64,000 nucleotides of DNA from Sporosarcina koreensis. GTDB taxonomy: Bacteria > Bacillota > Bacilli > Bacillales_A > Planococcaceae. A program made the position numbers and the translations under genes. The DNA lies in contig NZ_LN651337.1 in the NCBI RefSeq assembly GCF_000826145.2, forward strand, positions 65,774-129,773, given 5' to 3'. Shown here piece after piece: positions 42,034-44,277 of this stretch. The notes under the pieces were generated by a model. The model was not told where the DNA came from. It was given only the letters and a program-made list of their open reading frames with translations, and did not search any database. Every line of letters starts with the position of its first letter. Position 1 is the stretch's first letter.

Positions 42034-42705
42034 CTAGACTTTCAAAGATTTGAATTCGTTGATCGCCCGCAGCCAGTTTCCGCGCATATAGGCGGAAGCC
42101 TGCTCGGCTTGTTTATTCTCCAGCATGGAGATGATTGTCTCATGCTCTTCGATCGACTTTTCCGTAAGGATGATCGAATTATGGAAAAACAGTCTGCGGA
42201 CATGGGCCTGCAGCGATTCTGTGATCGATGAGATATACGAATTCGCTGCTGCATCGACGATAAGCTGGTGGAATGATTCATCGATTTTCAGTGCGTTGAA
42301 ATAATCCTCGTTGCGGACGGATTCAGCGAATTCGCTGTTCAGACGTTTGAGGTCTTGGATCATTTGATCCGATATGACCGGGGCTGCGAGCTCCGCGGCA
42401 AGTGCCTGAAGGGCGGCCAGCGGCGGCAGCAGCTCGGTGATGGAGTCCTTTTCGACGTCCGTTACTTGGGTCGCCTTTCCCGGATACATTTTGACGAATC
42501 CCTGCACTTCCAGCAGCTGCAGCGATTCACGGATCGGCGTGCGGCTGACGCCGAGTGCTTGGGCGAGTTCACTATCGACGAGCTTTTCCCCAGATTTCAG
42601 CGTGCCGTCGATGATCCATTGCTGCAGCTGATTGAAGGCGCTTTCTTTTGCCGTCTGTCTTGCAGGCTTTTTATGGTCTTGTGGTATTGGCATTGAATTC
42701 ACCAT
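42034..42705 (-). CDS. GntR-family regulator, FadR/FCD subgroup
   Basis: 223 aa. N-terminal winged helix (about 19-80; SELAQALGVSRTPIRESLQ) and C-terminal all-helical FCD domain with metal-type histidines (IDESFHQL, HVRRLFFH, EEHETI). Such regulators control sugar-acid or carboxylate genes; none is adjacent, so the target may be its own promoter or elsewhere. Start ATG 42705 or 42693; neither ribosome site is strong. Confidence 0.88.
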   Translation of the reverse strand: MVNSMPIPQDHKKPARQTAKESAFNQLQQWIIDGTLKSGEKLVDSELAQALGVSRTPIRESLQLLEVQGFVKMYPGKATQVTDVEKDSITELLPPLAALQALAAELAAPVISDQMIQDLKRLNSEFAESVRNEDYFNALKIDESFHQLIVDAAANSYISSITESLQAHVRRLFFHNSIILTEKSIEEHETIISMLENKQAEQASAYMRGNWLRAINEFKSLKV

Positions 42706-42727
42706 CCTGATCTGACATTCATTCTAC

Positions 42728-42756
42728 AGTATACCGTATTTTGACACCGGTTTGAA
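42728..42756 (-). promoter_or_regulatory. sigma-A promoter of the GntR gene
   Basis: Minus strand: TTCAAA (42751-42756), 17-bp spacer, TATACT (42728-42733). Confidence 0.6.
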
Positions 42757-42825
42757 CAGTCATCGGCAAATGTTTCTGACGCTTGTAACATTCGGTTTGT
42801 TTTTGTAACCGGAATGGAGGTTACC

Positions 42826-42842
42826 TGTAACATCGCTGTAAT
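42826..42842 (+). promoter_or_regulatory. WalR (YycF) box ahead of the LysM-3D gene
   Basis: TGTAAC-ATCGC-TGTAAT is an exact match to the TGTWAH-N5-TGTWAH consensus of WalR. Further TGTAAC copies lie at 42784 and 42804. WalR activates yocH of B. subtilis, which encodes the same domain type. Confidence 0.75.
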
Positions 42843-42889
42843 ATTGGGCTGTTAATCTATACCCAGACTTAAAAAAGGGAGCGGAGCTT

Positions 42890-43474
42890 TTGAAGAAACT
42901 TATTTTCACATTCATCTTAGCTACGGCACTATTAGTCAGCGGATCACATGAAAGTTCGGCGGCAGCGTCGTCCTACAAGGTAAAAAAGGGAGATACCCTA
43001 TACAAAATTTCACGGACGTATAACGTTTCAGTAGGCAATATCATGAAATGGAACGGTCTCAAATCGACTGTTATCTATCCGAATCAGAATTTACGGGTCG
43101 TAAGCGGCGGTACTGCGTCAGCAGCGAAAGCACCTGCTAAGAAACCTGCGAAAACACCGTCACGTTCAAATGATGATACAGTGACAAAAGAATTCATCGC
43201 CAATGCATCAGCCTATACGGCTTCTTGCCGCGGATGCTCTGGCATCACGAAAACAGGCTTGAATCTTAAGAAAAATCCTTCACTTAAAGTGATTGCAGTC
43301 GATCCGAACGTCATCCCGCTCGGTTCGAAAGTATATGTGGAAGGCTATGGATATGCAGTCGCCGGCGACATCGGCGGCGCTATCAAAGGCAACCGTATCG
43401 ATGTCTTTGTACCGACACACAGCCAGGCGATCCAGTGGGGACGCAAGAATGTACGGGTGAAGGTACTGAACTGA
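42890..43474 (+). CDS. secreted LysM-3D cell wall hydrolase, YocH-like
   Basis: 194 aa. Signal peptide (about 1-25), one LysM (about 28-71; KKGDTLYKISRTY), a Lys/Ala/Pro linker, and a C-terminal 3D domain (about 105-194) with the three aspartates in AVDPNVIPLG, AGDIGG and NRIDVF. B. subtilis YocH has two LysM repeats; one here. Probably cleaves peptidoglycan in growth. Start TTG 42890 follows GGGAGCGGAG. Confidence 0.88.
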   Translation: MKKLIFTFILATALLVSGSHESSAAASSYKVKKGDTLYKISRTYNVSVGNIMKWNGLKSTVIYPNQNLRVVSGGTASAAKAPAKKPAKTPSRSNDDTVTKEFIANASAYTASCRGCSGITKTGLNLKKNPSLKVIAVDPNVIPLGSKVYVEGYGYAVAGDIGGAIKGNRIDVFVPTHSQAIQWGRKNVRVKVLN

Positions 43475-43486
43475 ATAAATGAATGA

Positions 43487-43519
43487 GGCCAGCTGCGAAC
43501 CTGCAGTTGGTCTTTTTTT
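43487..43519 (+). terminator. terminator of the LysM-3D gene
   Basis: 10-bp stem with two GU pairs (GGCCAGCTGC / GCAGTTGGTC) then TTTTTTT. Confidence 0.75.
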
Positions 43520-43560
43520 ACCCGTAAAGGTACACTGATAATCATATAAGGAGGGATTGT

Positions 43561-44277
43561 ATGGAACTCTACATCGTTACAGGCGCATCGAAAGGGATTG
43601 ATGCAGCCTGTATGGAAGTATTACAGCAACAGGGGAAGACCGCAATCGGCATCGCCCGCAGCAACCCGGGCGGTCATGAGCATTTTGAAGAAATCGATCT
43701 GACAGAACGCAGCCAGCGGCAGGGTGCCATTGAACGGCTCCTGTCGCCTTACTTGCATGAGGCCGAATCATTCACACTCATCAACAATGCGGGAACAGTG
43801 GAGCCGGTTGGAAAGGTGGGCGCCCTCTCAGCTGATGGTATCCGCCAGGCGATCGAGCTGAACCTGTCTGCACCGATCGAACTGTGCAATGAGTTCATCG
43901 AAGTGCTGGCACGCACAGATGCAAAGAAGCGGATTGTCAATATTTCATCCGGAGCGGGCCGCAGTGCAATGGAAGGATGGGGAGTCTACTGTACAACGAA
44001 GGCGGGACTCGACCGGTTTTCCGAGGTCGTCCGCCTGGAACAGAAGCGCGCGGAATTCCCGGCAGGCATCGTATCCATTGCGCCGGGCATCATTGACACG
44101 GACATGCAGAAGACGATCCGGTCCAGTGAACAGGAAGGGTTCCCGCTGCTCGGAAAATTCATCGACTACAAAGAGTCCGGCCAGCTGAGCAGTCCCGAAG
44201 ACACGGCAGAACGTCTTCTGAACTGGATTACCCGTTCCGATCTGACAGAGACGGAAGTCATCAGCCGCTTGAATTGA
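43561..44277 (+). CDS. short-chain dehydrogenase, YueD-type (benzil reductase-like)
   Basis: 238 aa Rossmann-fold NAD(P)H enzyme: TGASKGID at the N-terminus, NNAG near 75, catalytic Ser in NISSGAG and YxxxK as YCTTK. Closest in pattern to YueD/benzil reductase of Bacillus. The physiological substrate is unknown. Single gene ended by the hairpin at 44281-44314. Confidence 0.85.
   Translation: MELYIVTGASKGIDAACMEVLQQQGKTAIGIARSNPGGHEHFEEIDLTERSQRQGAIERLLSPYLHEAESFTLINNAGTVEPVGKVGALSADGIRQAIELNLSAPIELCNEFIEVLARTDAKKRIVNISSGAGRSAMEGWGVYCTTKAGLDRFSEVVRLEQKRAEFPAGIVSIAPGIIDTDMQKTIRSSEQEGFPLLGKFIDYKESGQLSSPEDTAERLLNWITRSDLTETEVISRLN

Follow-up and report, generated by a model that had tools for sequence, protein, structure and literature searches.

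Four WalR-type half-sites ahead of an extended –10 element without a –35 hexamer: a conserved array at the promoter of a yocH-like gene of Sporosarcina koreensis

WalR is a regulator of the OmpR/PhoB type and binds direct repeats. In Bacillus subtilis yocH is among its targets, as a sequence-only reading of the present DNA had stated, and its promoter is reported to be bound and activated by WalR (PMC4478028, PMC7299342). The locus described here, situated in a window of 64 kb (the whole stretch of Sporosarcina koreensis DNA analysed), raises the question of whether a yocH-like gene of this organism is placed under WalR in the same manner, and by what promoter architecture. The gene (42890–43474, plus strand; assigned from its translation and Pfam matches) starts with TTG and codes for a YocH-like LysM-3D protein of 194 aa. 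It is separated by an intergenic stretch of 184 bp (42706–42889) from a divergent gene for a GntR/FCD regulator (42034–42705, minus strand). The product comprises a LysM domain (PF01476, 2.4e-16) and a 3D domain (PF06725, 1.2e-24), both above the cut-off, and its N-terminus, judged by eye, resembles a signal peptide; it has the composition characteristic of the YocH family, i.e., a secreted LysM protein with a C-terminal 3D domain. AVDPNVIPLG, GDIGGAI, and IDVFV, which we take to be the Asp motifs of the 3D domain with the roles usually ascribed to them, can be read in it, and hydrolytic activity is predicted. TTG is the homologous start codon in the 36 genus promoters read, three of which (L038, L040, and L041) have an in-frame ATG 9 nt upstream. 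The gene is followed on the plus strand by an intrinsic-terminator-like hairpin with a T tail (43485–43514), and therefore probably forms a one-gene transcript.

The intergenic stretch carries four WalR half-sites, all on the plus strand: H1 (TGTAAC, 42784–42789), H2 (TGTAAC, 42804–42809), H3 (TGTAAC, 42826–42831), and H4 (TGTAAT, 42837–42842). They lie at offsets 66, 46, 24, and 13, respectively, the offset being the distance of a half-site upstream of the TG of an extended –10 element. H3 and H4 are the upstream and downstream halves of an exact WalR box, TGTAAC-ATCGC-TGTAAT (42826–42842), the sole match to TGTWAH-N5-TGTWAH on both strands of the 64-kb window, in which 0.03 matches would be expected. 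The exact match had been pointed out in the sequence-only reading together with further TGTAAC copies upstream at about 20-bp steps, and both statements hold: the copies start at 42784 and 42804, and the successive steps from H1 to H4 are 20, 22, and 11 bp. When the 184-bp stretch was dinucleotide-shuffled 2000 times, four TGTAAY on the plus strand were never obtained, and any pair of half-sites 11 bp apart was obtained once; the WalR box is thus confirmed and greatly exceeds chance expectation. The promoter thus contains the consensus site that marks the WalR regulon, it is conserved (see below), and its binding by WalR is predicted.

An inverted repeat, GTAACC-N8-GGTTAC (42805–42824, without strand), which the same reading had noted as overlapping the array, does exist, but it does not rise above chance level. 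The stretch contains two inverted repeats of 6 bp (spacer 3–20), and at least as many were found in 401 of the 2000 shuffles; moreover, just two of the 38 anchored genus promoters retain GTAAC together with GTTAC, the two arms of the repeat. It was rejected as an operator and looks incidental.

The extended –10 element TGT-TAATCT (TGNTANNNT, 42850–42858, plus strand) begins 7 bp after H4, so that H4 ends 10 bp ahead of the –10 hexamer. There is no –35 hexamer 16–18 bp upstream of the –10, where the best sequence matches TTGACA in one position of six, and a consensus promoter scan listed no plus-strand promoter in 42650–43600. Among 38 promoters of the genus the match to TTGACA is at most four of six, reached in L033 only. 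The position expected for the –35 hexamer is occupied by the proximal pair H3–H4, and the promoter thereby has a class II layout, in which direct repeats of 11 bp, set at a constant spacing to the –10, replace the –35 element.

The genome codes for both partners of the presumed signalling system. WalR was identified with NF040534 (459.9 bits against an NCBIfam cut-off of 340) and WalK with NF033092 (862.9 against 725), so the WalR–WalK pair that a WalR regulon presupposes is present in the same genome. In the gene row (L073) they are followed by YycH (PF07435), YycI (PF09648), a metallo-beta-lactamase-fold gene, and a trypsin-fold gene; by position, the metallo-beta-lactamase-fold gene takes the place of YycJ and the trypsin-fold gene is HtrA-like. 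YycH is present in one copy, on contig C2, and in all 61 genus genomes. The receiver domain of WalR aligns closely with two YycF chains, 2zwm and 3f6p; a third, 2d1v, is matched by the DNA-binding domain (203.8 bits over 107 residues). Read from the alignment, the phospho-acceptor Asp54 (equivalent to the published D53) is kept, and so is Thr102, equivalent to Thr101 of B. subtilis, which is phosphorylated by PrkC.

Conservation of the array was examined in a genus promoter set of 40 members, comprising 37 genus-set loci and L160, L161, and L164, which came with the family set, belong to the same genus, and are counted here. An anchor on TGNTANNNT was obtained for 38 of them but not for L032 and L039, and L027 was anchored wrongly. 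Among the anchored promoters H1 is present in 35, H2 in 37, H3 in 37, and H4 in 36, with all four in 34; H1 lies at offset 66 in 27 of them and at offset 67 in eight. Inspection by eye of L032, L039, and L027 revealed GG or AG instead of TG, with no loss of half-sites and with the –10 hexamer still 10 bp away. This replacement occurs in four genus members, G014, G015, G025, and G084; in the yocH-like gene of the last (L234) the half-sites follow at steps of 21, 22, and 11 and end 10 bp before TAAGCT, preceded by AG for TG, and the array lies about 160 bp before the TTG start. The information content is 1.2–1.8 bits per position in the TGTAA of H2–H4 and at the fixed positions of the –10, while most spacer positions are below 0.8, the exceptions being offsets 60, 59, 47, 37, 36, 34, 17, and 7 with about 0.8–1.3 bits.

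A core pattern, made up of a half-site pair with an 11-bp step, a gap of 7 bp, and the extended –10 TGNTANNNT, was then sought throughout 61 genomes of the genus and found in 56, exactly one copy in each, against none for the reversed-pattern control. All of these matches except one lie at the yocH-like gene: 33 were assigned by coordinates, three are at L160, L161, and L164, and 19 came from 20 further loci fetched, in which the core precedes an ORF aligning full-length to the 194-aa protein with 58–99% identity. The exact core is absent from five genomes (G014, G015, G025, G033, and G077), the first four of which have near forms (loci L039, L032, L027, and L042, respectively). The strict pattern of four half-sites was found in two of 250 genomes drawn from the class, both belonging to the own genus, from which four genomes had been drawn; the strict array has been seen in this genus only, while the geometry of three offsets is wide. 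The exceptional core match, L203 (G084:C1:2980708), lies away from the yocH-like gene, and no long ORF was found after it. In G006 (L043) the array is followed by a yocH-like ORF of 153 aa that lacks most of LysM and keeps the 3D domain.

Outside the genus, the family set consists of the 30 best-scoring loci from 121 genomes, and of 18 further genera it represents three; L171 and L172, in which the match begins inside the gene, were left out of the count. In these three genera 19 of 19 loci score at least four of five at offsets 13, 24, and 46. A more distant sample was formed by the best 80 of 537 loci retrieved with B. subtilis YocH, from which 20 representatives were chosen by name, unnamed Bacillus sp. 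being left out. When 1420 three-site geometries were compared on the best 80 of 537, the geometry learned from the genus came top with a mean of 14.3, the mean over all geometries being 7.9 with a standard deviation of 1.28; the loci are related, so this distance is not a probability. With blind anchoring, in which the –10 anchor is picked without regard to half-sites, offsets 46, 24, and 13 ranked 1, 2, and 3 of 84 in the representatives (19 of 20 with an anchor) and held ranks 1–3 of 89 in the best 80 of 537 (74 with an anchor). Among 3363 triples in the 20 representatives (18,24,46) ranked first with 14.15 and (13,24,46) second with 13.96; a comparison with shuffles was set aside as unfair here, since many shuffles have no –10 anchor and so score 0. 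Offset 13 is the weakest outside the family, especially in Neobacillus, Lederbergia, Ureibacillus, and others with TGTTCT at offset 24. The feature is thus kept within the genus and in three further genera belonging to its family, its spacing recurs at Bacillus-group yocH, and walRK is present, which agrees with the earlier suggestion of a conserved WalR–yocH link; as a feature of the DNA, the WalR box on the YocH-like gene is supported, and the link appears to reach well beyond Bacillus. L129, L130, L154, L155, and similar Bacillus-like yocH promoters, with TGTTCT at 24, have TGCAAT/TGCCAT repeats further upstream at an 11-bp spacing, which may represent a WalR array that has diverged.

The closest known counterpart is yocH of B. 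subtilis, which likewise codes for a LysM-3D product and has an extended –10 preceded by half-sites at 46, 24, and 13. B. subtilis-group yocH loci have the form TGTAAT-16-TGTTAT-5-TGACAT-7-TGTTACGAT. The exact pair lies there at offsets 57/46, 33 bp further upstream than in S. koreensis (24/13), while the pair at 24 and 13, exact in S. koreensis, is degenerate (TGTTAT, TGACAT); H1 of the S. koreensis promoter is at offset 66. The genes also differ in the start codon (ATG in the B. subtilis group, TTG here) and in LysM repeats, of which B. subtilis YocH has two and Pfam found one here. A layout of the same kind is that of the E. coli pho box, which consists of an 11-bp repeat with 10 bp to the –10. 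The pho box is said usually to substitute for the –35 region (PMC4971064), and PhoB class II promoters likewise have direct repeats replacing the –35 near the –10; the promoter discussed here differs in its predicted regulator, WalR, in its extended –10, and in its presumed membership of a wall-metabolism regulon.

Direct repeats that end 10 bp before the –10 without a –35, in a pho-box-like arrangement, lead one to expect activation by recruitment. We therefore consider it likely that the yocH-like promoter is directly activated by WalR, with H3–H4 replacing the –35 for sigma-A RNA polymerase, and the gene probably depends on WalR for being switched on. Phosphorylated WalR (WalR~P) would bind H3–H4 head-to-tail at about –39 to –23 (positions inferred from the –10), the pair would stand in for the missing –35 hexamer, and the bound regulator would hold sigma-A RNA polymerase at the extended –10. 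H2 and H1, which point to roughly the same side of the helix, may add further WalR subunits, and expression of the wall enzyme would thereby be tied to WalK signalling. Some observations weigh against this reading: the relaxed TGTWAH consensus is barely enriched in the genome, offset 13 is weak in part of the Bacillus-like loci, a triple with 18 in its stead does slightly better among the representatives, and four genus members have GG or AG where the TG should be.

The main rival holds that WalR, once bound to the array, represses the gene, opposite to B. subtilis yocH, the proximal box blocking RNA polymerase, because in Staphylococcus aureus WalR sites located between or downstream of the –35 and –10 are associated with repression (PMC10746227). 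The proximal box, in the –35/spacer region, fits this position rule; H4 falls in its repression zone, which counts against activation, and in S. aureus activation goes with sites upstream of the –35 element (PMC10746227), whereas the proximal site here is in the –35 position. As worded, however, the rule concerns promoters with a –35 element, and there is little –35 to be blocked here, with one match of six in S. koreensis and at most four (L033 only) in 38 genus promoters. Offsets 13, 24, and 46 are, furthermore, those found at B. subtilis-group yocH, and B. subtilis yocH is activated. On balance we regard repression as unlikely.

Direct activation by WalR also has to be weighed against two readings in which WalR is not the principal user of the array. 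In B. subtilis the PhoP box also consists of direct repeats, with a related hexamer recurring about every 11 bp, and another regulator of the OmpR family, such as PhoP of the phosphate response, could on that account be the main user. The sixth base of the half-sites is nevertheless almost always C or T, while the reverse complement of the PhoP hexamer ends in A; besides, at the five places with a strict box in the genome no phosphate-uptake gene was seen in the 5–5.5-kb stretches read, and we think this explanation improbable. That the half-sites are chance or neutral ancestral leftovers without function might be argued from the common descent of these promoters and from the conserved spacer positions, but the difference in information between half-site and spacer positions, the identical spacing across genera, and the failure of any of the 2000 shuffles to reach four half-sites disfavour this reading so strongly that we hardly credit it at all.

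The link between WalR and yocH is already known, and what is added here is the conserved promoter architecture; a literature search in titles and abstract openings retrieved no description of the half-site/–10 geometry. Slightly better than even, in our judgement, are the prospects of a wider proposal, namely that yocH promoters, from those of the B. subtilis group to those of the present genus, share a WalR platform of direct half-sites in a register of about 11 bp, which ends 10 bp before the –10 and replaces the –35. In that case WalR could activate from within the –35/spacer region, the position rule of S. aureus, by which sites in between mean repression, would need a clause for promoters devoid of a –35, and the functional site of B. 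subtilis yocH would include a degenerate proximal pair missed by consensus searches. Many Bacillota depend on WalRK for viability, and activation or repression by it is predicted from site position; a class of promoters in which WalR replaces the –35 would alter such predictions and would allow WalR~P to be assayed in a straightforward way by transcription in vitro. Direct control by WalR, predicted here, is described for ssaA, isaA, and sle1 of S. aureus, which likewise code for secreted wall hydrolases, and two WalR sites each are given for isaA and ssaA (PMC10746227).

The strict box (TGTAAY half-sites) has six matches in the S. koreensis genome, two of them overlapping, against one in the reversed control. 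The five places are yocH, two NlpC/P60-SLH genes (L074 and L075), the region upstream of murA (L077), and L076. Of the three other 3D-protein matches in the genome, the two inspected (L046 and L047) have no WalR box. The relaxed TGTWAH consensus gives 12 matches against nine in the reversed control; being hardly enriched, it cannot alone list the WalR regulon and was rejected for that use. In L077 (G000:C4:1617500-1623000) the strict box lies at locus position 2749 on the minus strand, about 235–245 bp before murA, and a murA strict box is present also in G009, G019, and G021 (L237, L246, and L247; the count leaves out L245 of G001); if functional, it would bring a wall precursor enzyme under WalR. 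L074 has a triple array of WalR half-sites (locus positions 2487–2514) ahead of its NlpC/P60-SLH endopeptidase gene. Triple arrays occur in 52 of the 61 genus genomes and never in the controls; in 25 of the 30 such loci read (L204–L233) the array is followed, 18–20 bp beyond its last half-site, by an extended –10, and as judged by reading 24 of the 25 precede NlpC/P60-like ORFs (the exception is L210). In these 25 loci the last half-site is thus at offset 24–26, within 2 bp of H3 of yocH. In L243 (G009) and L249 (G021) a strict box is situated 22–35 bp before an ORF with one hydrophobic stretch.
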